Shown here in pieces: positions 2,041-20,809 of a stretch of DNA of 64,000 bases (its first letter is position 1; each line of letters starts with the position of its first letter). The notes beneath the pieces were generated by a model. That model did no database searches and was not told the DNA's origin. It worked only from the letters and a program-made list of their open reading frames with translations. Source of the DNA: Lachnospiraceae bacterium V9D3004 (lineage in GTDB: Bacteria; Bacillota; Clostridia; Lachnospirales; Lachnospiraceae); contig JHWW01000001.1 in assembly GCA_000621985.1 (NCBI GenBank), positions 496,001-560,000 on the forward strand, in the 5' to 3' direction. The position numbers and the translations under genes were made by a program.

Positions 2041-2199
2041 ATGGCAGAGAACAATAAAGATAAAGTTGAAGAGAAAAATAAGGGCGCAAAGCTTGATCTT
2101 GACGATATGGATCAGGTAGCAGGCGGAGCCAATCCATTTGCTTCTATCAAGAGAGTTGAGAATCACCAGATCGATGATGAACTTAAAAAGAACATTTAA
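2041..2199 (+). CDS. Double-glycine leader peptide, candidate NHLP/PCAT export substrate
   Basis: This 52-residue ORF has a strong GGAGG ribosome site at 2026-2030, ten bases before its ATG. The N-terminal half is charged (MAENNKDKVEEKNKG) and runs into LDLDDMDQVAGG, which has the acidic, hydrophobic-spaced, Gly-Gly layout of leaders cut by C39 peptidases. Cleavage after GG would release a peptide of about 23 residues beginning ANPFASIKRV and ending DELKKNI. That core has no Cys or Thr and one Ser, so lanthionine or thiazole chemistry is unlikely; it does carry Lys next to Asp/Glu. An ABC transporter with a C39 domain lies 9.6 kb downstream. Leader type and export are inferred from motif and context. 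The core has no similarity I recognise, and its activity is unknown. Confidence 0.75.
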   Translation: MAENNKDKVEEKNKGAKLDLDDMDQVAGGANPFASIKRVENHQIDDELKKNI

Positions 2200-4150
2200 T
2201 GAACACACTGTAACAATAAGGAAGGGCCGGGCTGCATTATATGCAGCTTGGCTTTTTCTGCTTATTTTTATGTTAATTCCGTTAATAAAGACTGAATATT
2301 ATGACACGGAGAGCAAGGATTACCCGAGAGCCTGTAATTTGGCAGACGTTAACTCAGGATATAATTACACAGATGAGCTTTCGCAAATTGATGAAAAGTG
2401 CTATACGATCGATTCTGAAAGCATATTGTACGCTGTGAAAGATAATTCGGATGAAGGCACATCATGGGCCTGGTATAATGACGGAACATATTGGTATTAC
2501 GATAACGAATCATCCAATATCGATCTCAACGAAACGGTATATGCCACAGAAGGCATTGATATCAACATAAGAGATCTGAAGAATATTACTCCGGATGAGG
2601 ACGGTGCGGTAACTGTAGCCGTCGTTGATACGGGGATTGACATTGATCATGAAGAACTGAAAGATATGCTCTGGAAGAATGAGCTTGAGATACCGGATGA
2701 CGGAATAGATAATGATGGGAACGGATATACGGATGATGTATACGGATGGAACTTTTACGATGATAATTCCGAGATATATAATTCGGGCAATTATACGGAA
2801 GATGCCCATGGAACCCATATTGCGGGGATAATCCACAGGACCGTGAAGGAAGTATATGCCGGCGTACCTAATGTTAAGATCATGTCTGTCAAGTCAATGG
2901 GGGGAATTAACGGAACCGGAAAGGTATCGGACATAATCAAAGGAATACAATATGCCGAGGCTAACGGAGCCGATATATGTAATCTGAGTCTTGGATTCAG
3001 GAATTGGAATGAAAATCTCTATAATACAATTAAAGATTCGAATATGCTGTTCGTCATCGCAGCCGGAAACGGTGAAAGCGATACAAACGGGACGGGATTT
3101 GATCTTGGACATAAAAAAAGATATCCTGCCTGTTACGAACTTGATAATATAATCGTAGTAGCTAATATGCGTTGTGACGGAAAGCTTCACTATTCATCAA
3201 ACTACAGTGATGAGTATGTTGATATTGCTGCACCGGGAACAAAGATACTAAGTACGAGCACAGCGAAGTCGGGCTATGAGGTAATGACAGGAACATCCAT
3301 GTCGGCTCCTTTTGTGGCTGCGGAGGCAGCATGTATCAGTCTGTTTGATCCGGATATGAGTGTGGAAGATATAAAGTCATGCATACTTGATACGAAAAGA
3401 AGCATTCCTGAACTCGAAGGAAAGGTAAGAACAGGCGGAATGATAGACATCGGAAGGGCGATGAAGCTTCTCATGGGAGTAGAAGATACGCCCACCCCGA
3501 CCGCTGAAGCCTCGGTAAGCCCGTCTTCAGCTCCTTCACCGACCCCGGATACAACGAGCGATCCGAATGCCACAAGCACCCCTAAAGCCACTAACACCCC
3601 GGGCGCAACGTCGTCCCCGACATCGGAGCCTTCGACAAATCCCACCGCAGAACCTACCGGGACTCCGGATACAACGAGCGATCCGAATGCCACAGGCACA
3701 CCGAATGCCACTAACACACCGGGCGCAACGTCGGCCCCGACCTTGGAACCTTCGTCAGAACCGTCTTTGGCTCCTTCACCGACACCGGAGACCACGAGCG
3801 ATCCGAACACCACGAATACTCCGAACACCACGAACCCGCCGGCCGCAACGTCAGCCCCTACATCAGCACCTTCATCAAACCCGACACAGAAAAAAACAAT
3901 AATCAAACAGGGAAAAATATATGTGGCAGGCAAAGGGAAAACAAAAGCAAAATACCTGGTAAAAAATGCAAAAAAAAGATTCGTGACATATTACAGATGT
4001 CTTGTTCCCCAAAAATATCACGTTGCAAAAATACCCGGAAAAATACGTCTTGGCGACGGGAAAATATATAAAGTTTCAGGGGTAGCAAAAAAAGCGTTTA
4101 AAAAAGCAAAAAATATACGAAAGATAAAAAAATATAGTGCATTATTATAA
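2177..4150 (+). CDS. Membrane-anchored or secreted subtilisin-like serine protease (S8)
   Basis: A 657-residue subtilase. An N-terminal hydrophobic stretch (AALYAAWLFLLIFMLIPLI) acts as signal peptide or anchor. The catalytic triad is clear: Asp in AVVDTGIDIDHEEL, His in DAHGTHIAGI and Ser in GTSMSAPFVA. Between Asp and His lies an acidic DDGIDNDGNGYTDD insert, probably calcium binding. After the protease domain come a Pro/Thr/Ala linker built from three 40-residue repeats and a Lys-rich C-terminus ending in the start of a BspA-type repeat (GVAKKAFKKAKNIRKI). The start is uncertain: ATG at 2174 or 2177 lies inside the upstream peptide gene, and a TTG at 2138 is possible. Overlap with the peptide gene suggests translational coupling and a role in processing or degrading the exported peptide. 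That role is inference. Confidence 0.85.
   Translation: MNLKRTFNEHTVTIRKGRAALYAAWLFLLIFMLIPLIKTEYYDTESKDYPRACNLADVNSGYNYTDELSQIDEKCYTIDSESILYAVKDNSDEGTSWAWYNDGTYWYYDNESSNIDLNETVYATEGIDINIRDLKNITPDEDGAVTVAVVDTGIDIDHEELKDMLWKNELEIPDDGIDNDGNGYTDDVYGWNFYDDNSEIYNSGNYTEDAHGTHIAGIIHRTVKEVYAGVPNVKIMSVKSMGGINGTGKVSDIIKGIQYAEANGADICNLSLGFRNWNENLYNTIKDSNMLFVIAAGNGESDTNGTGFDLGHKKRYPACYELDNIIVVANMRCDGKLHYSSNYSDEYVDIAAPGTKILSTSTAKSGYEVMTGTSMSAPFVAAEAACISLFDPDMSVEDIKSCILDTKRSIPELEGKVRTGGMIDIGRAMKLLMGVEDTPTPTAEASVSPSSAPSPTPDTTSDPNATSTPKATNTPGATSSPTSEPSTNPTAEPTGTPDTTSDPNATGTPNATNTPGATSAPTLEPSSEPSLAPSPTPETTSDPNTTNTPNTTNPPAATSAPTSAPSSNPTQKKTIIKQGKIYVAGKGKTKAKYLVKNAKKRFVTYYRCLVPQKYHVAKIPGKIRLGDGKIYKVSGVAKKAFKKAKNIRKIKKYSALL
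2222..2257 (+). terminator. Intrinsic terminator-like hairpin just after the peptide gene, inside the subtilase start
   Basis: Bases 2222-2237 pair with 2241-2256 as a 16-bp stem, with a G-C-rich top, four G-T wobbles and a 3-base loop. The stem runs into a T-rich tail. It begins 22 bases after the peptide stop codon but lies within the first codons of the protease ORF. It could terminate most transcripts after the peptide and let a fraction read through. Confidence 0.6.
3541..3894 (+). repeat. Three 120-bp direct repeats encoding the subtilase linker
   Basis: Units start at 3541, 3661 and 3781 (exact 120-bp period, 40 codons). Each begins with a CCGGAtAC/GACCACGAGCGATCCGAA-type stretch and contains GGGCGCAACGTC or a close variant. 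They encode Pro/Thr/Ser/Ala linker and are more GC-rich than their surroundings. Unit number is likely to vary between strains. Confidence 0.85.
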
Positions 4151-4189
4151 CTGTTGTGATATTATATATTATGTCAATGTAATACCATG

Positions 4190-4228
4190 GTGAGAGTGCC
4201 GAAAGATAGCTGTTTGCGGTGCTTTCAC
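4190..4228 (+). other. Hairpin between subtilase gene and STAS gene
   Basis: Bases 4190-4201 can pair with 4217-4228 over 12 positions, including three G-T wobbles, with a 15-base loop. No T-run follows, so it is a weak terminator candidate. It lies in the 175-base gap before the STAS gene and may be a leader structure. Confidence 0.35.
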
Positions 4229-4325
4229 TGTTATGCTGTAATAAAATAATCAATAACAGTTCAGTGACGTGATTAATTGTTGCTTTGTGTCACTTTACAG
4301 TAAAAAAAAAACGGAGGATGGTAAA

Positions 4326-4625
4326 ATGACTATTGACAAAAAAGTAAACGGAACGGAATTAACTATCGTACTTAAAGGAAGACTTGATACGATGACGGCA
4401 CCTCAGCTCGAGGGTGAACTTAAGCAGAGTGTATCGGGAATTGAGAGTCTTATATTTGATATAGCCGAGCTTGAATACATATCATCTGCAGGACTTCGTG
4501 TGCTTCTTTCGGCACAGAAAGTAATGAATAAGCAGGGAGAAATGACAATAAGGAATGCTAATCCGGAAGTAATGGAGATATTTGAAGTAACGGGATTTAT
4601 CGATATTCTTAATATTGAGGAGTAA
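4326..4625 (+). CDS. STAS-domain anti-anti-sigma factor homologue (SpoIIAA/RsbV-like)
   Basis: A 99-residue single-domain STAS protein. The hallmark segment LEYISSAGLRVLLSAQ aligns with the regulatory loop of SpoIIAA and RsbV; Ser54 sits at the position phosphorylated by RsbW-type kinases in that family. In known systems the unphosphorylated form captures the kinase, and a PP2C/SpoIIE phosphatase resets it. Both partner types are encoded downstream (kinase domains at 5767 and 10906, phosphatase at 9158). The ATG at 4326 is chosen because it follows a GGAGG at 4313-4317; an upstream in-frame ATG lacks one. It is followed two bases later by the ATP-grasp gene, so it heads a tight run. The target of the circuit is unknown. 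Confidence 0.88.
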   Translation: MTIDKKVNGTELTIVLKGRLDTMTAPQLEGELKQSVSGIESLIFDIAELEYISSAGLRVLLSAQKVMNKQGEMTIRNANPEVMEIFEVTGFIDILNIEE

Positions 4626-4627
4626 GC

Positions 4628-5770
4628 ATGGATAATTTTATCGCTGATTTTTACAGAATATTTGTTGATAATATTGTATGCATGATTAAGGGGGATTATG
4701 AACAGGGCAGAGTTGATCTTAACGATCTCGGTAACCTGGCGCTTTTAAGTATTGACAGAAGGAGTATCACGCCTTCTTTGAAGAATACGATGAAGCTCAC
4801 AATGGCCGAGAAGAGGTGTATCAGAAGATTTTACAAGCCCTATGTAAGATACATAACAACGAGATATCACAGGTATTATACCTCAAGGAACGGTCATTTT
4901 TCGCCTTATTATATACCTGAAGATTTGTATCTTATGTGGATCGACAGATATTTTTGCGGTCGTACCGAAGCCAAATATCTTGATAACAAATGTTATTATT
5001 ACAGATTGCTTTCCAATATTAAGCTTCCCGAAGCGGTGGTAATGAGGATCGGCGATAGTTTTTTGGACGGAAACCTTAGACCCGTTACAGAGTTAGAAGC
5101 GGCAGAACTTGTCGGAGCGGAAGATGAAGTGGTTGTTAAGAGAGCTGTTAATTCAGAAGGCGGATACGGGGTAGAATTCATGGCCGGTTCGAAACTTGAG
5201 GCCCGGTTTAGTGACATTATGGGTAATATTCCGTGCGATGTTGTTATACAAAAGCCTATCAGACAGCACAAAGATCTGGCGGCGTTGCATCCGGAATCCG
5301 TCAACACAATGAGAATAGTGTCGCTTAAGACAGGTGATAAGGTAAAAGTATATAAAGTATGTCTTAAGATAGGAGTAGGTAAGGAACGTATTGATAACGG
5401 CTGTCACGGAGGAATCTACTGCGGTGTAAGGAGTGACGGAACTTTGAGGGATTATGGTGTTCTTGATAACGGAAAAGTCCTTCACAGACATCCGGATCTC
5501 GGATATGCATTCGGTGACAAGAAAGTTCCGCATCTTGGCAGAGCGGTTAAACTGGTTAAGGAAGCCCACTCCTTTATGGGACATTTCAGGTTGGTAGCAT
5601 GGGATGTTTCAATAGATGAACACGGAGAAGCTGTGCTCGTGGAAGCAAATCTTACTCTCGGGGGGATCAATGATGTGCAGCTTTGCAGCGGACCGTTGTT
5701 CGGAAAGGATACTAAGAAGATCCTTGATGAAGTATTTAAAGATAACAGAAAGGCAATAACGTTGTTATGA
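4628..5770 (+). CDS. ATP-grasp enzyme of the sugar-transfer-associated type
   Basis: This 380-residue protein resembles the 'sugar-transfer associated ATP-grasp' family, ATP-dependent carboxylate ligases of unclear substrate. The basic central motif HPESVNTMRIVSLKTG and the C-terminal metal-site segment VLVEANLTLGGIN fit the ATP-grasp fold; the first 100 or so residues are family-specific. It has no signal peptide and should act in the cytoplasm. It starts two bases after the STAS stop, preceded by GAGGAG, and overlaps the next gene by ATGA, so these genes are translated together. Position beside a peptide export system makes peptide tailoring (ligation to, or within, the substrate) possible. 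The related family is better known near glycan genes, so that is a hypothesis only. Confidence 0.75.
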   Translation: MDNFIADFYRIFVDNIVCMIKGDYEQGRVDLNDLGNLALLSIDRRSITPSLKNTMKLTMAEKRCIRRFYKPYVRYITTRYHRYYTSRNGHFSPYYIPEDLYLMWIDRYFCGRTEAKYLDNKCYYYRLLSNIKLPEAVVMRIGDSFLDGNLRPVTELEAAELVGAEDEVVVKRAVNSEGGYGVEFMAGSKLEARFSDIMGNIPCDVVIQKPIRQHKDLAALHPESVNTMRIVSLKTGDKVKVYKVCLKIGVGKERIDNGCHGGIYCGVRSDGTLRDYGVLDNGKVLHRHPDLGYAFGDKKVPHLGRAVKLVKEAHSFMGHFRLVAWDVSIDEHGEAVLVEANLTLGGINDVQLCSGPLFGKDTKKILDEVFKDNRKAITLL

Positions 5771-7506
5771 AACGTGATGATCAATTCCTTAGAAAAGAAT
5801 ATATGAAGAACCTGTATCCGATCATGTTTTCTGTTCTTGGGGGAACTATCAATGCTCTTATTGACAGTGCATTTGTGTCACAGAGGCTTGGGAGTGAAGG
5901 ACTTGCGTCCATCAATATGAGTCTTCCCGTCTACCTTGCGATATGTACGATAGGTTCTCTTATAGCCGGAGGCGCGTCGGTTCTTTCTGCGCAGGCTGCC
6001 GGCAAAGAGAGGATGGATGAATCGGAGAAGTATTACAGGAATTCAATATGGATATTAGTGATCCTGGGATTATTGTTCACAACGGTGGGAATGCTTTTAT
6101 GCAGGCCTCTTGCATCGTTCCTTGCACACGACGGAACTATTACCGGATATGTTTACTCATACTGCCTGATCATGTTGAGTGGAACACTTCCCACAATATT
6201 ATTATACATTCCTTTGTATTATCTACAGATAGAAGGCAAGACAAAGCAGATATCGGTAATGATGACGCTTATAATAGTTATTGATGTATTGCTGGATTAT
6301 TTTTTGATGTTCGTTTTAAATATGGAGATCGAGGGTGCAGCAGTAGCAAGCGTTGTTTCCATCCTTATAGCCTGTATATACGGATTTGTCATGTTGTCCA
6401 CAGGTTATTCTAATTATCATTTTGACATCAGGTCATTCAGTATGGCGGGAATCGGAAAAATGATAGTGCTTGGAAGTCCTGTGGCCCTTGGTAATTTTGT
6501 GGATGCGATTAAGCTTTTTGTCCTGAATTACCTGATACTTATCGGAGGAGGAACAACGGCGGTTGCGATATGGGCGGTTATTAATTCTTTATCGGAATTT
6601 GCAATGTCAATAATATCAGGTGTACCGCAGGCGGCAGCTCCGATGGCAGGAACTTATTATTCGGGAAGAGAAAACAGCGGACTGAGAATACTTGTCAGAC
6701 TTCAGTTGTCTACGGGAATACTTCTTACAGGTACATATGCTGCCCTGATCGTGCTGTTTCACGGAATTATTGAGAATATATTCGTACTTGGTACGGACAT
6801 ATCGGTCCAGCTCGTATGTCTTGGAGCGTATTGTGTTTTTGATATACTCAGCAGTATTTGGATCACTTTCTTCCAGTCGACAGCAAGGATACAAGAATCC
6901 AATACGATAATCATGTTCAGAAAATTGTTGTTCCCGATAGGATTTGCGATCTTACTTATAACAGTGAACGGTTACATATGGCTTTTCCTCCCGGCAGGGG
7001 CATTATGTACAGTGTTTGCGGGACTGATCCTGACATGGATCAAATCATTGAGAACAAGGAAGAGCAAACACCATCTGTCGCCAATACTTCTGCTTGATGA
7101 TTACCTTGAGAGAGAGAACAAAGTGATAGACTTTTCCATAGTTCCCACAACAGAGAATATATGTGATGCAAGTGAGCAGATTAAGGAATTCTGTGAAAGA
7201 AATAATATGAGTACCAAGCAGACAATGAAGCTCGGACTTGCCATAGAGGAGCTCATGAGTGTGATAGCCAAGAAAAATCAGAATCTTGACAGTGTGGATC
7301 TAAGGGCATTTGCATGGGAAGAGAATACCGGGATCAGAATACGTTGCGCGGGAATACAGTATAATCCGTTTGATGATGAAGAAGATGATGATGACTTCCT
7401 GATGGGAGTCTCGATGATTAAGAAGATGTCGGAGGTAGTATATTATACTTACTCTCTCGGAATGAACACGATCAACATATTATTTGAAACAGAAAAGAAC
7501 ACCTGA
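5767..7506 (+). CDS. MATE-family transporter fused to a C-terminal RsbW-like ATPase domain
   Basis: At 579 residues this is over 120 longer than an ordinary MATE exporter. Residues 1-445 hold about twelve membrane segments with MATE features near the start (PIMFSVLGGTINALIDSAFV) and mid-protein (GVPQAAAPMAG). The remaining ~125 residues form a HATPase_c_2-like domain: LGLAIEELMSVIAKK resembles the N-box helix of anti-sigma kinases and FLMGVSMIKKMSEVVYY the later G-box region. The usual DDG-type ATP motif is replaced by an acidic run (FDDEEDDDDF), so kinase activity is uncertain and the domain may only bind a partner. ATGA overlap with the ATP-grasp gene and TGATG junction with the GH3 gene indicate one operon. 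Transported substrate unknown. Confidence 0.85.
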   Translation: MKRDDQFLRKEYMKNLYPIMFSVLGGTINALIDSAFVSQRLGSEGLASINMSLPVYLAICTIGSLIAGGASVLSAQAAGKERMDESEKYYRNSIWILVILGLLFTTVGMLLCRPLASFLAHDGTITGYVYSYCLIMLSGTLPTILLYIPLYYLQIEGKTKQISVMMTLIIVIDVLLDYFLMFVLNMEIEGAAVASVVSILIACIYGFVMLSTGYSNYHFDIRSFSMAGIGKMIVLGSPVALGNFVDAIKLFVLNYLILIGGGTTAVAIWAVINSLSEFAMSIISGVPQAAAPMAGTYYSGRENSGLRILVRLQLSTGILLTGTYAALIVLFHGIIENIFVLGTDISVQLVCLGAYCVFDILSSIWITFFQSTARIQESNTIIMFRKLLFPIGFAILLITVNGYIWLFLPAGALCTVFAGLILTWIKSLRTRKSKHHLSPILLLDDYLERENKVIDFSIVPTTENICDASEQIKEFCERNNMSTKQTMKLGLAIEELMSVIAKKNQNLDSVDLRAFAWEENTGIRIRCAGIQYNPFDDEEDDDDFLMGVSMIKKMSEVVYYTYSLGMNTINILFETEKNT

Positions 7507-7532
7507 TGTTGGGAAAACATGGAGATTGCAAT

Positions 7533-9212
7533 ATGACGAAGGATATGCATAAGCATGTTACGATTGATGACAGGCTGAGAAACTCGTGTAAGGACGCAAC
7601 ACATATTAATACCGCAAACTGCCTGAAGATAGTCGAAGATAACCGGAATACGGTATTCGGATCTGAACATGATTTTGAGAATATTCATGATGTTGACGAG
7701 TACCGCAAAAAAGTTCCGCTGGCTGATTATGAGGATCACAGGCCGTACATGGAAAAAATGATGGAAGGTGACATGAATCAGCTTCTCGTCTATGATGTCG
7801 TCGGTTTTTGTCATACATCAGGCACTCTCGGTGTTCAGAAACATATACCAATGACCGACATTGAACTGGAAAGATTTTCCAATTACTACGAGATATATCA
7901 GGATAAAGTTATAAGCGAATGCGGAGGAAAGAGACTTCACCTCAGCACATTCAGAATACTTCCGGGTGAGAAGATAACCACCTCTTTATTATTTACAGAG
8001 ATATATTATAAGAATCTGTTTGAAAAAGGATATCTCGACATGGACGAGTATGTCGGAGGAGAAACGCTTTTATTTGAAAAGGAGCCCGGAGAGATAATAT
8101 TTGCAAAAGCCTGGGCTGCGTTATCAGAGAAGAATATTACATTGATCGAATCAATTTTCCTATATGATCAGCTTCACTTCTTTGGATATATGGAAGAGAA
8201 CTGGAAAGAAGTGACAGATGCGATGAAGACGGGAGTTATTCCCGAAAGACTCGGGTTGTCGGACAGAGTTAAGGATTATCTGTTGTCGCTTCCGAAAGAC
8301 ATGGAGAGAATAGAGGAAGTATGCAGATTATTTGAAGAAGGTTTTGAGAATATTGTAGGAAGACTATGGCCGAACATAAGAATGTTGAGCGGAATAAGCA
8401 ACAAAGCATTTGTGTTCGAGGATACGGCGCTTGCCAGATACGCACCGGATATTTCCAAGTATTATCTGTGTTACTGTGCATCTGAATGTTACATGGGGCA
8501 TCCGATGAACGAAGGCGATTTCAGATATGTTATGATGCCGGATAATGCATTTTTTGAGTTCCTGCCTTATAAAGAGCAGGATGAATACAGGGAAGATGAG
8601 TCATTTGCAGACACATGTCTTCCGAATGAAGTTGAGATTGGAAAACAATATGAGATAATATATACCACTTTTTCGGGGCTGTACAGATACAGAATGGGCG
8701 ATATTGTAAGAATTGTAGGATTCTACTATGAGAGCCCGATAATGGAGTTCGTGTTCAGAAAGAACCAGTTTCTTAATATAGCAGGAGAAAAGATGGGTGT
8801 CAGGCAGATAGAAGAGGCAGTTAATTCGCTGAAAGATGAAGGTATAATTGTTGAACAATACTGCTTTGGAGCATCAGTGGAAAGGTATCCCGGAAAATAT
8901 CTTGCCGGAATGGTAATTGATGAGAATTGTAACGTATCCGACCCCGATCTTATTGCGGGAAGATTGGATGAAATATTGTGTGGCAACAATTCGGATTATA
9001 AGGATCTGAGAGAATTGCAGCTTCTTGATCGTCTTGATGTCGCGGTATTTGACAGGGATACGTATAAGGAATTCCTCCGTGATAACGGACTTGGCGGAGG
9101 ACATAATAAACCTAAACACGTTGCATCGGTTAGTTTCAGGGAAAGGAGCTTTGAAAAATGGAAAAGAATGCGGGACAGAAAAACAGAAGAAAAGACTTCC
9201 ATATGGGATTGA
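7533..9212 (+). CDS. GH3 (auxin-responsive) family acyl-adenylating enzyme
   Basis: A 559-residue cytoplasmic protein of the GH3 family, whose plant members adenylate an acyl acid and join it to an amino acid. Visible signatures are VPLADYEDHRPYMEKM, the ATP-binding loop HTSGTLGVQKHIPMT, the hinge-region GLYRYRMGDIVRIVGF and a C-terminal lobe beginning RKNQFLNIAGEKM. The ATG at 7533 has GGAGA seven bases upstream; an in-frame ATG at 7506 overlaps the previous stop (TGATG) but lacks a ribosome site. It overlaps the phosphatase gene by 55 bases. Bacterial GH3 proteins are poorly characterised; here the substrate could be a small acid, or the peptide C-terminus. Family assignment is good, reaction is inference. 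Confidence 0.85.
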   Translation: MTKDMHKHVTIDDRLRNSCKDATHINTANCLKIVEDNRNTVFGSEHDFENIHDVDEYRKKVPLADYEDHRPYMEKMMEGDMNQLLVYDVVGFCHTSGTLGVQKHIPMTDIELERFSNYYEIYQDKVISECGGKRLHLSTFRILPGEKITTSLLFTEIYYKNLFEKGYLDMDEYVGGETLLFEKEPGEIIFAKAWAALSEKNITLIESIFLYDQLHFFGYMEENWKEVTDAMKTGVIPERLGLSDRVKDYLLSLPKDMERIEEVCRLFEEGFENIVGRLWPNIRMLSGISNKAFVFEDTALARYAPDISKYYLCYCASECYMGHPMNEGDFRYVMMPDNAFFEFLPYKEQDEYREDESFADTCLPNEVEIGKQYEIIYTTFSGLYRYRMGDIVRIVGFYYESPIMEFVFRKNQFLNIAGEKMGVRQIEEAVNSLKDEGIIVEQYCFGASVERYPGKYLAGMVIDENCNVSDPDLIAGRLDEILCGNNSDYKDLRELQLLDRLDVAVFDRDTYKEFLRDNGLGGGHNKPKHVASVSFRERSFEKWKRMRDRKTEEKTSIWD

Positions 9213-10876
9213 GATTCAAATTTGCAATGGTTTTTGCCATACTGGGTATATGTATCGCGGTAGCGATCGTACTTGTCGGAGTAAGGATATACAGAAACTC
9301 CATCAAACAGAGATATACCGATATGGCTTATCACGTTGCGGAGACGGCTTCGGGATTCTTCAACGATGAAGAAGTTGAGATGTATGCCGATTCTCTTGCA
9401 AGATATTATAAAGGAGAGTTGACGGCTGAAGACATTACCGAACTAATGAATACTCCAAGGTATATGCAGCTTAAGAATACTATCAGAAATCTTCGTAAAG
9501 GCATGGGCGCAAATGACGTGTTTGTCGGCACTCTGGATATAGATCAGTTAAAGCATTACGATCCTGTTGCCGACGAGAACGGTGAATGGACTCCCATATG
9601 TTATATTACAGATTGTTACCATGATTCCGATCAGGATTTTAATTTTGGTGACAGAAGCCCTGCGGTTATCGAATATATAGACGATCTTATCGAGGCATAC
9701 GAGACAGGTGAACGTCCTGATAAGTTCATCGTATCGGATGGTCAGTTCGGATATAATACAACGGCTGTATATCCGATAGTAAAAAAAGAAAAAGTTGTGG
9801 CATTTTGTTTTGTAGAGATTCCCATGTCAACACTTGAATCCGATACAAGTGAATTCATAACTCATATCGTTATAGTAGCAAGTCTTGTAACAATAGGGTT
9901 CCTGATAGTTGGTATATTATTCCTTGTATACAGGATGATCCGTCCTATTGTTCGTGTGTCAAATGAAGCGGCAAGATTCACTTCGGATGATGAGAGGCGC
10001 ATATCGTACACGCTCAACAAGATCAAGACTCATGACGAGATCCAGACACTCAGCCGTAATCTTCTCAAACTGGAGATCGGTATCAACGAGTACATTAATA
10101 ACCTTACAAAAGTTACTGCCGAGAAAGAAAGGATCGGCGCAGAGCTTAATGTAGCGACGCAGATCCAGGCCGATATGCTTCCGAGCATATTCCCGGCATT
10201 CCCCGAACGTAAAGAATTCAATATATATGCAACAATGACGCCGGCAAAAGAGGTCGGAGGAGATTTCTATGACTTCTTCCTTGTGGATGATGATCATATC
10301 GCAATGGTTATGGCTGATGTGTCCGGTAAGGGAGTTCCAGCGGCATTGTTCATGGTGATCGCGAAGACTCTTATTAAGAACAGAACCCAGATGGGAGGTT
10401 CTCCTGCAGAGATACTTAGCTTTGTTAATGAGCAGCTGTGCGAAGGAAATGAAGCAGAATTATTCGTTACGGTATGGCTTGCCGTTCTTGATCTGACAAC
10501 AGGTAGAGGAATGGCTGCCAACGCAGGACATGAGCATCCGGCCATAAGAAGGGCAGACGGTTCATTTGAACTTGTTGTATACCGTCACTCACCTGCGGTC
10601 GCAACTGTGGAAGGCGTAAGATTCCGTGAGCATGAATTCGAACTTCATCCCGGAGACAGATTGTATGTATATACAGACGGTGTTCCCGAAGCGACTAACA
10701 GCGAAGATGAACTGTATGGAACGGACAGGATGATAGAAGCGCTTAATAAGTATGACAATGAAGGCGTGGAAAAGGTTCTTCACGGTGTGAAGGAAAGCAT
10801 AGATGAATTTGTCGGGGATGCTCCGCAGTTTGATGATATTACAATGCTTGGATTCGATTATTTTGGAAGAGAATGA
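9158..10876 (+). CDS. Membrane sensor SpoIIE/RsbU-type PP2C phosphatase
   Basis: The 572-residue protein has a membrane helix at about residues 21-45 and an extracellular sensor region of roughly 185 residues. A second helix (about 230-258), a HAMP-like linker, a short coiled coil (VTAEKERIGAELNVATQIQADMLP) and a C-terminal SpoIIE phosphatase domain follow. Metal-binding aspartates are visible in GGDFYDFFLVDD, MADVSGKGVPAALFM, YTDGVPEATN and FDDITMLGF. In partner switching such phosphatases dephosphorylate the STAS protein in response to an external signal. Start at 9158 is backed by AGGAG nine bases upstream, although it lies within the GH3 gene. The sensor domain could monitor the exported peptide or another extracellular cue. 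Confidence 0.92.
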   Translation: MEKNAGQKNRRKDFHMGLRFKFAMVFAILGICIAVAIVLVGVRIYRNSIKQRYTDMAYHVAETASGFFNDEEVEMYADSLARYYKGELTAEDITELMNTPRYMQLKNTIRNLRKGMGANDVFVGTLDIDQLKHYDPVADENGEWTPICYITDCYHDSDQDFNFGDRSPAVIEYIDDLIEAYETGERPDKFIVSDGQFGYNTTAVYPIVKKEKVVAFCFVEIPMSTLESDTSEFITHIVIVASLVTIGFLIVGILFLVYRMIRPIVRVSNEAARFTSDDERRISYTLNKIKTHDEIQTLSRNLLKLEIGINEYINNLTKVTAEKERIGAELNVATQIQADMLPSIFPAFPERKEFNIYATMTPAKEVGGDFYDFFLVDDDHIAMVMADVSGKGVPAALFMVIAKTLIKNRTQMGGSPAEILSFVNEQLCEGNEAELFVTVWLAVLDLTTGRGMAANAGHEHPAIRRADGSFELVVYRHSPAVATVEGVRFREHEFELHPGDRLYVYTDGVPEATNSEDELYGTDRMIEALNKYDNEGVEKVLHGVKESIDEFVGDAPQFDDITMLGFDYFGRE

Positions 10877-10905
10877 CTTGAGGCTTTTGAAAGGAGGCAC
10901 AACAT

Positions 10906-11313
10906 ATGGGCGAACTGATAATAGATGCGACAACGGATAACCTTAACGAAGTGCTTGAGTTTGTTGAGAAAGAGATGGAGGTCATTAACGCATCACCCAA
11001 GATCCATACTCAGATCAATATAGCTGTTGAAGAAATATTCGTAAACATTGCTCATTATGCATATAATCCCGTGATAGGAAGGGCAACTGTGGATGTTCAG
11101 ATAGTTGAGGAGCCGCCTTCGGTAACCATTACATTTATTGATGACGGAGTTCCCTACGATCCGCTTGCAAAAGAGGATCCGGATGTTACGCTGTCTGCTG
11201 AGGAAAGACAGATAGGCGGTCTTGGTATATATATGGTGAAGAAGAGCATGGATGAAGTAAAATATGAATACAAAGACGGTCATAATATTCTAACTATAAA
11301 AAGAAATCTTTAG
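10906..11313 (+). CDS. RsbW-like anti-sigma/serine kinase (HATPase_c_2)
   Basis: A 135-residue GHKL ATPase. The N-box is AVEEIFVNIAHYAY, the G1-like motif IDDGVPYDP and the G2-like motif GGLGIYMVKKSMDEV, all intact, so unlike the domain fused to the MATE protein this one should bind ATP. RsbW/SpoIIAB relatives phosphorylate a STAS partner and bind a sigma factor or another target. The gene has AAAGGAGG before its ATG, starts 29 bases after the phosphatase gene and ends 14 bases before the export genes, which ties the regulatory circuit to export. No sigma factor is encoded nearby, so its output partner is unidentified. Confidence 0.9.
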   Translation: MGELIIDATTDNLNEVLEFVEKEMEVINASPKIHTQINIAVEEIFVNIAHYAYNPVIGRATVDVQIVEEPPSVTITFIDDGVPYDPLAKEDPDVTLSAEERQIGGLGIYMVKKSMDEVKYEYKDGHNILTIKRNL

Positions 11314-11327
11314 GAAGGAGTTTAGTC

Positions 11328-11804
11328 ATGGCTGAAGGGTTGTTCAGAAAAAAAAGTCTTGACAAAGTGACTTCACCGGAACAGCTTAACGATTATGTCA
11401 AGGTTGCCGGCGTAAGTGTATGGCTTATTGTGATAAGTATTATCCTGTTACTGGCAGGTGTTGTAATATGGGGAGTATTCGGCAGCCTCGTATCAAGATT
11501 TAATGTTGGAGCGGATTGTAAGGATGGCATGATCACCTGTTATATATCCGAAGATGATATATCTGAAGTAACTGAGGGAATGAATATCAGAATCGACGGA
11601 AAAGAATTCGAGATATCAGAGATATCCGACAGACCTTCACTTGCATCCGAAGTGACGAATGCTTATGTGATGCATATAGCAGGCCTAGAAGAAGAAGATT
11701 GGGTGTATACCGCAAAAGTAGATGCAGCTAACCTTCCGGATGGGGCATATCTTGCTTCTGTTACTACAGAAGAGATGTCACCGATATCTTTTATAATTAA
11801 CTGA
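11328..11804 (+). CDS. NHLP/NHLM system HlyD-like secretion protein, short form
   Basis: At 158 residues it has the N-terminal pattern of NHLM-type accessory secretion proteins: RKKSLDKVTSPEQLNDYVKV, then one membrane helix (about residues 32-56, WLIVISIILLLAGVVIWGVF), then a small extracytoplasmic beta domain. It lacks the long coiled-coil hairpin of a full membrane fusion protein, as expected for a single-membrane Firmicute. AAGGAG precedes the ATG. It sits directly before the two ABC transporters, ten bases from the first, and probably docks with them in the membrane. Confidence comes from the N-terminal motif together with gene order. Confidence 0.85.
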   Translation: MAEGLFRKKSLDKVTSPEQLNDYVKVAGVSVWLIVISIILLLAGVVIWGVFGSLVSRFNVGADCKDGMITCYISEDDISEVTEGMNIRIDGKEFEISEISDRPSLASEVTNAYVMHIAGLEEEDWVYTAKVDAANLPDGAYLASVTTEEMSPISFIIN

Positions 11805-11814
11805 CGAGAGGCTT

Positions 11815-13995
11815 ATGTATATGAAAGCAGATGTTCGTAAGATGCCGTTGAAGAGCGGTGTTGCAAAAGTTCCGGTTGTCATGCAGATGGAAGCACTTGA
11901 ATGTGGCGCGGCATCTCTGACTATGATATTGGCATATTATGGAAAATGGCTTCCCCTTGAGCAGGTTCGCTCTGACTGCGGTGTTTCAAGGGACGGTTCG
12001 AGTGCCAAGAATATCATTCTTGCTGCCAGATCTTACGGGATGGAAGCTGGAGGCTACAAATATGAACCGGAAGATCTTAAGGAAGAAGGAACATTTCCCT
12101 GCATAATTCACTGGAATTTCAACCATTTTATTGTATTAAAAGGATTCAAAGGCAATTACGCCTATATAAACGATCCCGCGCAGGGAGATAAAAAAATAAC
12201 TATGGAGGAATTCGATGATGCTTTCACGGGTATTTGTCTTGAATTCAAACCGAAGGAAGAGTTTGAGGCATCCGGTAAACCAAAGAGCATGTTTGCTTAC
12301 GCCGGGAAACGTCTGAAAGGTGCCGGCACAGCCGCTTTATTCGTGCTTTTGACCACCATCGTAACGTCATTGATCGGAGTAGTTCATCCGGCATTTGCAA
12401 GGATATTCCTTGACAGACTTTTGTCGGGAAGTGATCCTGACTGGTTCGTACCTTTCATTCTTGCATTGGCCGGAATATCTGCAATACAGATCATTGCAGC
12501 ATGGATTCAGGCAATATACTCACTGAGGATCAACGGTAAGTTGGCTGTTGTGGGAAGCTCAACATTCATGTGGCATGTTCTTCGCATGCCTATGGAATTC
12601 TTCTCACAGAGAATGGCCGGAGATATACAGCAGAGACAGCAGTCAAACGGTAATATAGCAGAGACTATCGTAAAAGTATTCGCCCCCCTTCTTATGAAGG
12701 CGGCAATGATGGTATTTTATCTTGTGGTAATGCTTCGTTACAGTATCACTCTTACTCTTGTGGGAGTTCTTTCGATCGTGATAAATATGTTCCTCGGTTC
12801 ACTTATAGCGAAAAAAAGAGTTAATATAACCAGAGTGCAGATGCGTGATGAAGGCAAGCTCATCGGACAGACCGTTAACGGCATTGAGATGATAGAGACG
12901 ATTAAGTCGAGCGGTGCCGAGAATGGTTTCTTTGAAAAATGGTCCGGTTATCAGGCCAGTGTTAATACCCAGAACGTTCATTACGCCAAAGTAAGCCAGT
13001 TTTTAGGTGCAATTCCTTTGCTTGTAACCGCCATTACCGATGCGATAATTCTTATACTTGGAGTAAGATTTGCCATGACAGGTAATTTTACGATAGGTAT
13101 GGTTATGGCGTTCCAGGGATTCCTACAGGCGTTCATGGAGCCTGCCGGAGAGATAATCGAGGCAGGTAAGACGATTCAGGAGCTTCGTACCGAGATGGAA
13201 CGTGTAGAGGATGTCATGGGATATCCTACGGACATTAAAGAAGACATGACGAAAGAAGAAGAGGAATATGACAAATTATCCGGCAATCTTGAGATGAAAA
13301 ACGTGACGTTCGGTTATTCAAAACTTAAGGAACCGCTTATCAAAGATTTCAATCTTTCGCTCAAGCAGGGAAGCCGTGTGGCTTTTGTCGGTGCATCCGG
13401 ATGTGGAAAGTCCACATTGTCAAAGCTGATATCAGGATTATATAAGCCGTGGAGCGGCGAGATACTTTTTGATGGAAAAACAATAGATGAGATTGACAGA
13501 AGCGTATTTACGGGTTCGCTTGCCGTAGTTGATCAGGACATCATTTTATTCGAAGATACGATCGCCAACAATATAAAAATGTGGGACAGTTCCATAGAGG
13601 ACTTCGAGATGATAATGGCGGCCAGAGACGCTAAGCTTCATGAAGATATCATGCAGCGTGAAGGCGGATATAATTATAGGATCAGAGAGGGCGGCAAGGA
13701 CTTCTCCGGAGGTCAGTGTCAGCGAATGGAGATCGCAAGAGTGCTTGCAGCCGACCCTACGATCATAATAATGGACGAAGCGACCTCGGCGCTTGATGCC
13801 AGGACAGAATATGAAGTTGTCAAGTCAATAAAAGACAGAGGAATCACATGCATCGTAGTTGCTCACAGACTGTCGACCATAAGGGATTGTGACGAGATCA
13901 TTGTAATGAACCGCGGCGAAGTGGTTGAACGCGGTACACACGAAGAGTTATATGCAAAAGGCGGTTATTATACACAGCTTGTTACGAATGAGTGA
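11815..13995 (+). CDS. PCAT-type ABC transporter with N-terminal C39 peptidase (NHLP ABC1)
   Basis: The 726-residue protein has three parts. Residues ~15-145 are a C39 peptidase with Cys30 in ALECGAASL, His104 in HFIVLKGF and Asp120 in INDPAQG, so the triad is intact. Residues ~165-450 carry about six membrane helices. Residues ~490-726 are the ATPase, with Walker A GASGCGKST near residue 526, signature SGGQ and Walker B IIIMDEATSALD. Such proteins cut a double-glycine leader and export the mature peptide in one step. The only leader peptide I find in the window is at 2041. It is 10 bases downstream of the HlyD-like gene and 20 bases upstream of the second transporter. Confidence 0.95.
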   Translation: MYMKADVRKMPLKSGVAKVPVVMQMEALECGAASLTMILAYYGKWLPLEQVRSDCGVSRDGSSAKNIILAARSYGMEAGGYKYEPEDLKEEGTFPCIIHWNFNHFIVLKGFKGNYAYINDPAQGDKKITMEEFDDAFTGICLEFKPKEEFEASGKPKSMFAYAGKRLKGAGTAALFVLLTTIVTSLIGVVHPAFARIFLDRLLSGSDPDWFVPFILALAGISAIQIIAAWIQAIYSLRINGKLAVVGSSTFMWHVLRMPMEFFSQRMAGDIQQRQQSNGNIAETIVKVFAPLLMKAAMMVFYLVVMLRYSITLTLVGVLSIVINMFLGSLIAKKRVNITRVQMRDEGKLIGQTVNGIEMIETIKSSGAENGFFEKWSGYQASVNTQNVHYAKVSQFLGAIPLLVTAITDAIILILGVRFAMTGNFTIGMVMAFQGFLQAFMEPAGEIIEAGKTIQELRTEMERVEDVMGYPTDIKEDMTKEEEEYDKLSGNLEMKNVTFGYSKLKEPLIKDFNLSLKQGSRVAFVGASGCGKSTLSKLISGLYKPWSGEILFDGKTIDEIDRSVFTGSLAVVDQDIILFEDTIANNIKMWDSSIEDFEMIMAARDAKLHEDIMQREGGYNYRIREGGKDFSGGQCQRMEIARVLAADPTIIIMDEATSALDARTEYEVVKSIKDRGITCIVVAHRLSTIRDCDEIIVMNRGEVVERGTHEELYAKGGYYTQLVTNE

Positions 13996-14015
13996 GATGG
14001 GAAAGGTAATAAGAC

Positions 14016-16208
14016 ATGGGATGGTTTGATGAACAGATTAGACAGAGAAAGCAGATAGATAACGATGTGTTCGAAGATTCATTTGTACACATTGCCGGTG
14101 CCGTTATGGGTAAAAAACTGTCATCTGCCATGAAAAATGACAGACAGATGACGTTGGATGCTTTCGGTGATATTCTGAAATATTATCATCTGAAAGTAAG
14201 GGAAGTGCCGGACGGGATCAAAGAAAATGAAGAACAGCTTGAATATCTGCTTCGTCCTCACGGAATAATGAGACGAAAAGTCAAGCTGGCGGACGGATGG
14301 TACAAAGACGCAATGGGAGCGATGCTTGCCATCAAAAAATCCGACGGCGGGATTGTTGCGATAACTCCGTCGGGAATATCGGGATATCAGTACATAGACA
14401 GAAAAACCGGACAGAATGTACATATCAACAAACATAATCAGTTTGATTTTGAAGACGAAGCTATAGCATTTTACAAGCCCTTTCCATTAAGAGAAATGAA
14501 GATAAGAGATCTTGTCGGATTCATGTTCCATACATTATCTTATCTTGATATTTTCCTTGTTGTGGTAGCAATAATTGCGGTTACGCTGCTCGGTATGTGC
14601 ACTCCGTACATCAATCAGGTACTTGTATCGGATGTTTTGCCTTCAGGCAGTATGATGTATCTGGCTTCGGCCGCAACATTTCTCATATGTATTGTAGTAA
14701 CCGTGCAGGTAGTTACTTCGATAAAAGAACTGCTGTTATCCAGGATACACACTAAACTGGGACTCACTGTACAGTCAGCTGCGATGATGAGAATACTATC
14801 ACTTCCGCCTGACTTTTTTCAGGAATACAGTGCCGGTGAATTGTCGTCCCGTGTGCAGCAGATAGATATATTATGTATACTTGTTGCGAATATATTCCTT
14901 CAGACAGGACTTACGGCATTATTCTCACTTGTGTACATCACACAGATATTTGCATATGCTCCGGTACTTGTAGTTCCTGCAGTAGTAGTTATATTGACAA
15001 CTACGATATTCTCAATAATATCTGCCACAATGCAGATGAATATCAGCCGTAAGCAGCTTAATATAGCAGCCAAAGAAAGTGGTATGGGATTTGCGCTTAT
15101 ATCGGGAATACAGAAGATCCGTCTGTCGGGTTCCGAGAAGAGAGCATTCGCAAGATGGGGAAGATTGTACGCCCAATATGCGGAATTAACCTACAATCCT
15201 CCTAATTTTATTAAGATCAACAGTGTTATCACAACCGCGATTACTCTTGTCGGAACAATAGTTATCTATAATTCGGCAATGATAAATAATGTATCGGTGG
15301 CCGACTACTACGCATTTAACACCGCCTATGGAATGATATCGGGTGCATTTGTGAGTCTGTCGGGAGTGGCTCTTACATTCGCTAAGATAAGACCGCTTCT
15401 TGAGCTACTTGAACCAATACTCAAGGCCTGCCCGGAAGTATCGGAAGGAAAACAGGTCATTGAGAGATTATCGGGCGGTATCGAACTTAATAACGTATCA
15501 TTCCGATACAGTGAGGATATGCCGTTGGTAGTTGACAATATGTCACTTAAGATCCGTTCGGGTCAGTATGTCGCCATCGTAGGCAAGACAGGCTGCGGCA
15601 AGTCCACACTCATGAGACTTCTGCTCGGCTTCGAGACTCCTCAGAAGGGTGCAGTATACTATGATGGAAAAGATCTGAGCAAGATCGACCTCAGATCATT
15701 AAGGCGCAAGATCGGTGTTGTTATGCAGAATGGAAAACTTTTCCAGGGCGACATATTCTCCAATATAACGATATCAGCTCCCCAACTGACAATGGATGAT
15801 GCATGGAAAGCTGCCGAGATGGCCGGAATGGCTGAAGATATAAGGAATATGCCTATGGGCATGAATACGATCATATCCGAAGGTAACGGAGGAATATCCG
15901 GTGGACAACGTCAGAGGATAATGATCGCAAGAGCTATAGCACCAAAGCCGAGAATACTTATGTTTGATGAGGCGACCAGCGCTCTTGACAATATGACGCA
16001 GAAGACCGTATCGGAAGCACTTGACGGTCTGAAGTGTACAAGGATCGTAATCGCCCACAGATTATCAACGATACGCCAATGCGACAGGATCATCGTTCTT
16101 GATAAAGGTAAGATAATAGAAGATGGAAAGTACGAAGAGCTTATCGCAAAGAAAGGATTCTTCGCAGACCTCGTATCAAGACAGCAGATAGATAAGGCAT
16201 CAGATTGA
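14016..16208 (+). CDS. NHLP system second ABC transporter (ABC2), no peptidase domain
   Basis: A 730-residue ABC exporter with a distinctive N-terminal region of about 170 residues (QIRQRKQIDNDVFEDSFVHI) lacking the Cys-His-Asp triad of the first transporter. About six membrane helices follow (about 175-450). The nucleotide-binding domain has Walker A GKTGCGKST near residue 523, ISGGQRQR and ILMFDEATSALD. This architecture matches the companion transporter of NHLM systems, which likely forms a heterodimer with ABC1. The ribosome site is GGGAAAGG. It closes the cluster on the + strand and ends eight bases before the converging phosphopantetheinyl transferase gene, with no clear terminator between. 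Confidence 0.93.
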   Translation: MGWFDEQIRQRKQIDNDVFEDSFVHIAGAVMGKKLSSAMKNDRQMTLDAFGDILKYYHLKVREVPDGIKENEEQLEYLLRPHGIMRRKVKLADGWYKDAMGAMLAIKKSDGGIVAITPSGISGYQYIDRKTGQNVHINKHNQFDFEDEAIAFYKPFPLREMKIRDLVGFMFHTLSYLDIFLVVVAIIAVTLLGMCTPYINQVLVSDVLPSGSMMYLASAATFLICIVVTVQVVTSIKELLLSRIHTKLGLTVQSAAMMRILSLPPDFFQEYSAGELSSRVQQIDILCILVANIFLQTGLTALFSLVYITQIFAYAPVLVVPAVVVILTTTIFSIISATMQMNISRKQLNIAAKESGMGFALISGIQKIRLSGSEKRAFARWGRLYAQYAELTYNPPNFIKINSVITTAITLVGTIVIYNSAMINNVSVADYYAFNTAYGMISGAFVSLSGVALTFAKIRPLLELLEPILKACPEVSEGKQVIERLSGGIELNNVSFRYSEDMPLVVDNMSLKIRSGQYVAIVGKTGCGKSTLMRLLLGFETPQKGAVYYDGKDLSKIDLRSLRRKIGVVMQNGKLFQGDIFSNITISAPQLTMDDAWKAAEMAGMAEDIRNMPMGMNTIISEGNGGISGGQRQRIMIARAIAPKPRILMFDEATSALDNMTQKTVSEALDGLKCTRIVIAHRLSTIRQCDRIIVLDKGKIIEDGKYEELIAKKGFFADLVSRQQIDKASD

Positions 16209-16216
16209 TAACACAG

Positions 16217-16891
16217 TCAGAACTTGTAGGTTGTCACTTTGTCCGGAAGCGATCTTGCGACGGCGGAACATACATAGCCGTCTTTGAGATCATACATTCT
16301 GACAACAAAGTCCCGCCCTGATAAGTCCGATGAATGCTCACATGATACAGTCATTGAATCAAGATCAACAGCGAAGTTTTTTAACTCGCCGGCAAGACCG
16401 ATCCCGAGATATTTCAGATAGCTTTCTTTAACGCACCACAGTTTATAGAATTCTGTGGTGCGTTTTATATCATCTGTTATTGAATTAAGGAAATTCACCT
16501 CATTTTGATGGAAGAATCTGGAAGCAATTTTATCATTGTCCTTATCTGTAACTATCTTCTGGATATCACATCCATTTTCAGAGTCGCCTATAATACACAT
16601 AACACGATCGCCGGAATGTGACATATTAAAATATATACCTTCATCTTTCGGAAGGTAAGGCTTTTTATGCGGACCGTATATGAATTCAGGAAAAGAAGCA
16701 CAGTCGGCAAGGCATACAGACAATCCGTGCATAAGCAACACAAAGACACCGGCAGCCGCCGCCCTGTCATTAGCATTCTTATATCGTGCCACCCTGTCAG
16801 CACGCCACGCCGGAAGCCTGTCAAAAACCCTATTATATACGTTTTCATTCAAAAGCGGAGTTGTATCCGCAACAAATACTCTTGTATTCAT
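16217..16891 (-). CDS. 4'-phosphopantetheinyl transferase, Sfp type
   Basis: This 224-residue enzyme would transfer phosphopantetheine from coenzyme A to a carrier protein. Conserved segments are GPHKKPYLP, FNMSHSGDRV, GCDIQKI and FYKLWCVKESYLKYLGIGL (the WxxKES motif). The metal-site motif normally reads GxDxE; here it is GCDIQ, an odd substitution of the second acidic residue. The start at 16891 is chosen over an ATG seven codons upstream because AGAGGAA lies just before it on the minus strand. It converges on the export operon. No acyl or peptidyl carrier protein, NRPS or PKS gene is visible in the window, so it may serve fatty-acid ACP or a distant pathway. Confidence 0.88.
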   Translation of the reverse strand: MNTRVFVADTTPLLNENVYNRVFDRLPAWRADRVARYKNANDRAAAAGVFVLLMHGLSVCLADCASFPEFIYGPHKKPYLPKDEGIYFNMSHSGDRVMCIIGDSENGCDIQKIVTDKDNDKIASRFFHQNEVNFLNSITDDIKRTTEFYKLWCVKESYLKYLGIGLAGELKNFAVDLDSMTVSCEHSSDLSGRDFVVRMYDLKDGYVCSAVARSLPDKVTTYKF

Positions 16892-16968
16892 GGAAATTCC
16901 TCTTATTATCATTCACAGTCTCCCACACCCCATAGCCCTTAAAAACATTATAAAAGTCCTGTAGATAT

Positions 16969-20779: not shown

Positions 20780-20809
20780 TGATTTATAAAGCCGGGGGGG
20801 GTGAGTGAT

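Follow-up and report, generated by a model that had tools for sequence, protein, structure and literature searches.

What does a partner switch control when its genes are embedded among those of enzymes and transporters? In textbooks, partner switching is a means of controlling sigma factors. In Lachnospiraceae bacterium V9D3004 (genome 3.42 Mb, 98.7% complete), a STAS protein, a SpoIIE-type phosphatase and an RsbW-type kinase are encoded in a single run with an ATP-grasp ligase, a GH3-type acyl-amido synthetase, a MATE exporter and an NHLM-type peptide exporter. The locus was analysed in a stretch of 64,000 nucleotides (bases 496001-560000 of contig 1, JHWW01000001.1), hereafter the window; coordinates refer to it and to its plus strand unless a locus number or strand is given. 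The strongest finding is that transporters encoded inside partner-switch operons, the MATE exporter of the window among them, carry RsbW-like domains that, judged from their sequences, are probably pseudokinases; a function for these domains is proposed from the same evidence.

The MATE exporter ends in a putative pseudokinase

The preliminary description of this DNA had remarked on a MATE-RsbW fusion, and the remark was right and leads to the most interesting part of the locus. The gene (5767-7506) encodes a MATE part recognised by PF01554 at 70.8 bits (cut-off 24.9), followed by a C-terminal tail of 149 residues (7057-7503). The predicted model of the whole protein (pLDDT 86, pTM 0.82) has an ordered alpha/beta tail and a MATE membrane part, and compared with MATE structures it reaches a TM-score of about 0.8 by target length in the best rows. 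Against the Pfam family HATPase_c_2 (cut-off 27.4 bits) the window tail scores 17 bits, compared with 45.7 for the intact tail of locus L154. Judged by profile alignment (hhalign 2.5e-12), the MATE tails are clearly related to the RsbW kinases as homologues. Tail matches were found in 59 of the 397 genomes of the family, and among the matches listed 71 of 95 lie in open frames of 570-665 aa.

For the ATP site, 42 tail rows were aligned with 19 rows of stand-alone RsbW, in all 19 of which the N-box Asn, the Asp of D-x-G and the GGLG motif are kept. The window tail reads EELMSV, CAG and FLMG and fails all three: the N-box Asn is replaced by Val, the D-x-G Asp is lost and GGLG has become FLMG. 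Both Asn and Asp are lost in every one of the 17 tail rows (15 distinct loci, window included) in which the genes are ordered MATE-(ATP-grasp)-GH3(-SpoIIE). The row of L156 is misaligned and its residues were read by eye; the tail of L203, also read by eye, has lost both residues likewise. The NHLM-linked tail of L086 has lost the Asn and kept the Asp.

RsbW-like domains on two further transporter families

An SDF symporter of L140 has an RsbW-like domain at its N-terminus, and an ATPase of L138, adjoining an amino-acid binding-protein/permease fusion, has such a domain at its C-terminus. L167 has both the SDF and the ABC domain-bearer, and its two proteins are close relatives of the pair in L189. 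Further cases came from 20 fetched neighbourhoods and a profile scan covering 146 genomes of the order. In L189, L199 and L200, which come from one genus of another family, a STAS gene, a SpoIIE/RsbW fusion, an SDF gene and binding-protein/permease/ATPase genes form one run. Profile matches place the RsbW-like domain on both transporters of L189; the SDF N-termini of L199 and L200 share 85 and 94% identity with that of L189, though the profile search did not list them. The ABC gene of L200 is split into two frames. By eye, the kinase part of the SpoIIE/RsbW fusion looks intact in L189 and L199, and an ECF query matched nothing in the three loci.

The N-box position is not Asn in any of the 12 ABC and 5 SDF rows aligned. 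With hhalign, the ABC domains match the MATE tails at 6.5e-15 and RsbW at 1.1e-7, and the SDF domains match RsbW at 1.3e-7 and the MATE tails at 2e-7. Across the 146 genomes, a kinase is present in 20 of the 22 with transporter-length fusions and in 15 of the 124 others (P 3e-13), or in 17/22 and 14/124 (P 6e-10) when short kinase frames only are counted; these classes were set by open-frame length and the P values ignore relatedness. The tree unites the kinases in a single group (96/98), requires two changes among the MATE tails and places the ABC and SDF domains on long branches. Because of this shape, no claim is made on the number of domain moves. Titles and abstracts of the open-access literature searched, a weak test, held no description of a MATE-, SDF- or ABC-RsbW fusion.

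Two further loci are of note on their own account. L208 encodes an amino-acid ABC ATPase with a C-terminal RsbW-like domain and a binding-protein/permease fusion, with a STAS-matching protein of 433 aa nearby. In L196 (3953-5014 and 9502-9999) an ABC ATPase with an RsbW-like tail is followed, 4.5 kb downstream, by a HlyD match (3e-16), possibly another meeting of the domain with NHLM export.

Switch genes and candidate clients in the host genome

The canonical trio is present in the window. The STAS protein (4326-4625; PF01740, 1.8e-15), for which the ATG at 4326 is the likelier start, has an SSAGL motif that we take to be its phosphosite from SpoIIAA and RsbV. The phosphatase is a membrane protein of the SpoIIE/SiaA-type PP2C class (9158-10876; PF07228, 3.3e-45), and the RsbW-type Ser/Thr kinase (10906-11313; HATPase_c_2, 6.9e-21) has intact ATP-site residues. 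Structural searching with the phosphatase identified the PP2C domain, with SiaA-PP2C as the best match in the PDB. Its predicted topology suggests an N-terminal extracellular sensor region at about residues 41-235, for which the best 50 of 529 structural matches included none.

At an E-value of 0.01 the host genome encodes two RsbW-like domains, both in this operon. Its SpoIIE-type phosphatases comprise one full-length protein and one weak partial match at the cut-off. No SigB/F/G-type sigma factor (TIGR02980) scored over the cut-off in the host genome: the best match, at 134 bits, is a 376-aa open frame that is RpoD-like by size, a candidate of 257 aa belongs to FliA/WhiG, and the one after it is SigH-like and below the TIGR02980 cut-off. 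In the six-gene GH3 loci without export genes, described below, an ECF query (one phmmer query) gave no match. With a single RsbW/SpoIIE set, no SigB/F/G-type factor over the cut-off and no ECF match in the exportless loci, the MATE tail would be the obvious partner for STAS.

The GH3 block is conserved and separable from NHLM export

Between STAS and the kinase lie two enzyme genes. The ATP-grasp ligase (4628-5770; PF14397, 5.5e-34) found no PDB match at an E-value of 0.01. The GH3 enzyme (7506-9212; PF03321, 9.6e-42) has N-terminal, middle and C-terminal domains that pass three Pfam models, and it matches plant GH3 structures at E-values from 1.4e-30 to 6.2e-43. Against the OlsH model NF052613 it reaches 84 of the 620 bits needed (E 7.5e-24) and so falls below the cut-off. 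GH3 protein matches occur in 18 of 150 family genomes, the window's own included, and in none of nine other genomes of its genus.

A single-protein GH3 scan of genome contigs found nothing, and an alignment-based profile scan of named genomes was used instead. It gave 31 GH3 loci with flanks of up to 10 kb, shorter at contig ends. The order STAS, ATP-grasp, MATE/RsbW, GH3, SpoIIE, RsbW is exact and complete in six of them (L156, L157, L158, L159, L160 and L165). Contig ends truncate it in L161 and L166, it is varied in L162, L163 and L180, and it lacks ATP-grasp in L167 and L168; the remaining 18 have GH3 without the block. L158, L159, L160 and L165 look like one vertical lineage because they share flanking genes (by length and first residues), and the other six-gene loci stand in differing gene contexts. 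A relative with the order STAS, GH3, MATE/RsbW, SpoIIE, RsbW was found in another family of the order (L203). Several rows describe the same DNA: judged by length, L165, a contig of Lachnospiraceae bacterium AC2028 from the same family as the window genome, is identical with L040, and L162 with L137; L141 overlaps L105 and L140 overlaps L087.

With the window proteins as queries (E 1e-3), none of the 31 GH3 loci gave a match to HlyD or C39; ABC parts alone were matched, by six ABC proteins from five of the loci. The GH3 block is thus conserved and separable from NHLM export. The preliminary description had proposed one integrated system, to be checked by co-occurrence of the GH3 and export genes and undermined if the two were usually apart, or if the peptide gene were absent where the rest is conserved. 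The two are usually apart: besides the 0/31 above, the full six-gene block was found in none of the 20 other NHLM loci fetched, several of which are cut by contig ends, and the 21 of the 31 GH3 loci scanned for one held no GG peptide.

In the AC2028 lineage, a gene for a GGDEF protein precedes the STAS gene of the six-gene block (L040:15965-17215, with a like gene in L158), hinting, by analogy with SiaABCD, at a c-di-GMP link.

Partner-switch genes recur beside NHLM export

The part of the one-system idea that found support is the meeting of partner-switch genes with NHLM export. Linkage was counted in 24 genomes, the window's included, of the 42 that are HlyD-positive, with one HlyD match per genome; the P values presuppose uniform placement and treat related genomes as independent. 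HlyD has a SpoIIE gene within 20 kb in 7 of the 24 (1.3 expected, P 1.1e-4), or in 6/23 without the window genome (P 9e-4). For the MATE/RsbW fusion the counts are 4/24 (0.35 expected, P 2.5e-4) and 3/23 (P 0.004). Partner-switch/MATE cassettes therefore meet NHLM export more often than chance. Four loci combine MATE/RsbW, SpoIIE, RsbW and STAS with HlyD, ABC1 and ABC2: the window, L086, L140 with L087, and L141 with L105. The enzymes between these constant genes vary, with GH3 and ATP-grasp in the window, a formyltransferase/LPG-synthase-like fusion in L086, an acetyltransferase-like protein in L140 (PF00583, 4e-6) and, by position and length only, the same in L141. In 2 of 20 loci another GH3 gene is close to the export genes: it adjoins ABC1 in L101 and is separated from HlyD by 3 kb in L102. 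A rough P for this is 2e-4, rising to 0.02 if the base rate is set generously.

The joint locus L105/L141 is also a rich RiPP cluster next to a partner switch: NHLM genes and several GG or Nif11-like precursors are accompanied by YcaO, radical SAM/SPASM, ECF, RsbW, SpoIIE, MATE/RsbW and STAS genes.

The NHLM exporter and its GG-leader peptides

The last three genes of the run encode a short HlyD-like adaptor of 158 aa (11328-11804), ABC1 with C39 peptidase, permease and ATPase parts (11815-13995) and ABC2 with permease and ATPase parts (14016-16208). All three had been taken for NHLM components. For the two ABC proteins this holds: ABC1 passes TIGR03796 (925 bits, cut-off 853) as the sole protein of the host genome to do so, and ABC2 passes TIGR03797 (721 bits, cut-off 709). 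The C39 Cys, His and Asp, presumably the catalytic residues, are visible in ABC1. The HlyD-like protein fails TIGR03794 (26 against 156 bits), matching only the first 45 of 421 positions, though short homologues recur beside ABC1. Of 397 family genomes, 42 contain a match to it. Leaving the window's own row aside, 20 rows from 19 genomes span at least 148 of its 158 residues, and in all 20 fetched neighbourhoods the gene adjoins an ABC1 gene, complete or truncated by a contig end. The downstream peptide exporter is a real NHLM pair.

The start of the window holds the C-terminal part (31-2013) of a giant secreted Calx-beta protein of 2742 aa, the second of two, whose gene begins left of the window and ends at base 2013. 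It is followed by GG-leader peptide 3 of 52 aa (2041-2199; leader ..LDLDDMDQVAGG, core ANPFASIKRVENHQIDDELKKNI), whose gene has a ribosome-binding site and overlaps the start of subtilase 2 (2177-4150; Peptidase_S8, PF00082, 3.1e-45; start ATG 2174 or 2177), a protein with a Pro/Thr-rich linker. The locus reaches about 19 kb left of the window, where the order is ECF sigma gene, GG peptide 1, subtilase 1, a secreted Calx-beta protein of 2769 aa, GG peptide 2, DUF7005 and the 2742-aa giant, a paralogue of the first. Peptide 2 has 50 aa, and its 23-residue core (ANPFAALKRVENHLIDDELKKNI) is nearly the same as that of peptide 3. Each of the two genes lies directly 3' of a giant Calx-beta gene, and peptide 3 is unlikely to be a chance reading frame because the near-identical peptide 2 follows the other giant gene upstream.

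None of the three GG peptides scored over the cut-off of an NCBIfam precursor family, the two matches below it (cdhC and NF038167) being at chance level, and peptide 3 has no match in the Pfam precursor families. An assignment as Nif11 precursors was dropped, as the three contained no Nif11-type or nitrile-hydratase-type leader; in the same scan the Nif11 model scored over its cut-off in L100 (38.8 against 32.3 bits) and just below it in L105 (31.3). The LchA2 lantibiotic model NF038161 had no match in the host genome, and its control was equally silent. GG peptide 1 (L005 1613-1861; leader ..ISIDDLDMVAGG) is encoded after the ECF sigma gene, in a place that an anti-sigma gene might have been expected to fill, and is long on the N-terminal side of its GG site; a 65-aa peptide resembling it adjoins HlyD in L105. 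DUF7005 proteins (PF22541) are also encoded at L054:12500-13453 and L105:15490-16335, two NHLM/ECF loci from different genera. The available part of a rumen bacteriocin survey (PMC13289728) makes no mention of NHLP, SpoIIE or sigma factor.

Transcription and flanking genes

Domain and open-frame checks confirmed all twelve features that the preliminary description had named, from peptide 3 to a phosphopantetheinyl transferase (PPTase), at the positions listed here. The overlaps and tight spacing it had noted are also present: from STAS to ABC2 the genes run in a single direction, and every gap is under 30 nt or an overlap. The NHLM export genes, downstream of the GH3 block, are apparently co-transcribed with it. 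A promoter scan gave 42 sites (42.4 expected in shuffles) and a terminator scan 14 (10.1 expected, sd 3.2); with counts so near the shuffled expectation no transcript boundary can be argued. The locus is a composite of two joined systems, the GH3/partner-switch block and NHLM peptide export.

The PPTase gene (16217-16912, minus strand; PF01648, 3.4e-14) is convergent to this run, and its membership of the system is unproven. It was considered as proof of a carrier-protein product and dropped, no NRPS-like gene being recognised beside it (the whole genome was not searched for one). MATE/RsbW fusions with intact ATP-site residues lie near a PPTase in L147, L148, L149 and L155. The first three of these loci also have STAS and NRPS-like genes of 2-3 kaa and appear to be a related type of biosynthetic cluster; NRPS-like, PaaK-like and similar names in the locus annotation rest on likeness to proteins named by eye. 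Further right in the window are two neighbouring large hybrid sensor kinase/response regulator genes (18107-23494), the second of which (20801-23494) presumably encodes a DegV-type domain at its C-terminus.

Proposed mechanism and alternative explanations

On balance it seems somewhat likely that STAS moves between the live RsbW and transporter-borne pseudokinases, gating transport, in a system joined here to NHLM peptide export. This reading builds on the gene content and order, the loss of the ATP site, the presence of one domain on three transporter families and the lack of a canonical sigma client over the cut-off; from these we infer the binding of STAS, the direction of gating, the substrate and the signal. 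The phosphatase would sense an outside signal and dephosphorylate STAS, which in its unphosphorylated form would dock on the RsbW-like MATE tail and switch export. Because the tail is without ATP-site residues, it could bind STAS without phosphorylating it. The live RsbW would use ATP to rephosphorylate STAS, freeing the tail and resetting the switch. By family, the GH3 enzyme would adenylate a carboxylic acid and couple it to an amine, the ATP-grasp enzyme would make a second bond, and the MATE protein would export the conjugate. Since GH3 relatives (plant enzymes and OlsH) couple acids to amino acids, an N-acyl amino acid or a similar conjugate is suggested as the MATE cargo. For the 23-aa peptides, whose genes neighbour those of the giants and subtilases, the NHLM C39 exporter would provide both cleavage and secretion, with peptide release under the same operon. 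More tentatively, and possible rather than probable, the locus may represent a general clostridial class in which the STAS/RsbW/SpoIIE switch directly controls transport through dead RsbW docking ports on MATE exporters, SDF symporters and amino-acid ABC ATPases, so that one outside signal would set conjugate export and amino-acid uptake post-translationally.

Several observations weigh against gating by pseudokinases. Asn and Asp are both kept in 13 of the 42 MATE tail rows, among them the GH3-adjacent L043 (with another gene order) and NRPS-linked ones, and the tail of L048, whose GH3-like gene lies some kb away, is intact. Loss of the ATP site therefore does not mark the fusion family as a whole; it characterises the GH3 block together with some NHLM-linked relatives. 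Among the 12 ABC rows, 4 have an Asn at the next position after the N-box site. The tail profile alone matches no PDB chain. Since the host genome is 98.7% complete, the absences reported from it are not absolute.

The tails might instead be vestigial or structural and bind another ligand (a nucleotide, a metabolite or the membrane), with the gene order reflecting a common regulon only. The tails are indeed very divergent, at 15-61% identity to the window tail, Pfam gives the ABC and SDF domains no match over its cut-off, and no STAS or SpoIIE gene was found beside any of the nine two-gene ABC-tail pairs (L190-L198) within the 5-10 kb fetched. Such a reading is very unlikely in view of the recurrence of one domain on three transporter families, the genome-level co-occurrence of the fusions with the kinase, and the STAS/SpoIIE neighbourhoods of tail-bearing transporters.

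A classical transcriptional switch would make RsbW the anti-sigma factor of the upstream ECF factor, with SpoIIE and STAS freeing it to transcribe the peptide and export genes and the MATE tail as a side target or decoy. It is unlikely but stays a live rival, because the locus itself has an ECF sigma gene, some 29 kb upstream of RsbW, and such genes recur at NHLM loci: ECF directly adjoins RsbW-SpoIIE in L105/L141, falls within the gene run in L140, and adjoins ABC2 in L090, L101 and L103. It leaves the transporter tails unexplained, and the six-gene GH3 loci without export gave no ECF match. To our knowledge, ECF sigma factors are also without the region by which SigB/F-type sigma factors meet RsbW. 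Least of all do we expect a fully integrated system, as first suggested, with the secreted GG peptide modified by GH3 and ATP-grasp and both its production and its export under the switch. The single co-directional run from STAS to ABC2 fits such a system, as does the recurrence of partner-switch genes and unrelated GH3 genes at NHLM loci. Peptide tailoring by these enzymes is unsupported all the same: the GH3 block is complete elsewhere with no NHLM exporter in its flanks, it carries an exporter of its own in the MATE protein, and the enzymes differ among the NHLM-linked cassettes.

Discussion

The Bacillus systems RsbU/RsbV/RsbW and SpoIIE/SpoIIAA/SpoIIAB consist of a SpoIIE-type phosphatase, a STAS protein and an RsbW-type kinase, and the same three protein types are encoded in the window. 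The host genome, in contrast, has no SigB/F/G-type client over the cut-off, and copies of the kinase domain are found on transporters. Switching of transport through such copies, as favoured here, would give the circuit a non-sigma output, for which there is precedent: according to the available parts of the sources, the SiaABCD partner switch of Pseudomonas aeruginosa has a diguanylate cyclase as its output (PMC7647112, PMC8457831). As far as those parts describe it, SiaABCD resembles the window in its PP2C phosphatase, its kinase, its anti-sigma-antagonist-like switch protein and its non-sigma output, and differs in that output being a diguanylate cyclase, where the candidate outputs here are transporters with fused pseudokinases. 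The open-access literature searched gave no transporter output of a partner switch.

A domain of the anti-sigma pathway on a transporter is also found in SLC26/SulP proteins, which carry STAS domains (PMC8256260, as available in part); there STAS itself is fused, whereas in the window the RsbW-like domain is fused and STAS is free. With NHLM/NHLP C39 export and the Lachnospiraceae PCAT LahT (PMC6363468, available in part) the window shares ABC1 and ABC2 proteins that pass curated cut-offs, and GG leaders. It differs in its shortened HlyD, in that a Nif11-type leader was not found, and in the linked GH3/MATE/partner-switch block. The GH3 enzyme belongs to the same family as the plant GH3 acyl-amido synthetases and OlsH, a GH3-like N-acyl-ornithine synthase in the part of the source available (PMC12493201), but lies far under the OlsH cut-off and, going by the same source, has different operon partners.

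If gating holds, the locus would name an uncharacterised conjugate pathway, with a GH3 enzyme, an ATP-grasp enzyme and a gated MATE exporter, together with a short peptide exported from the same operon. If the dead kinase domains that three unrelated transporter families carry serve as docking sites, partner switches would act directly on import and secretion in gut and rumen bacteria.

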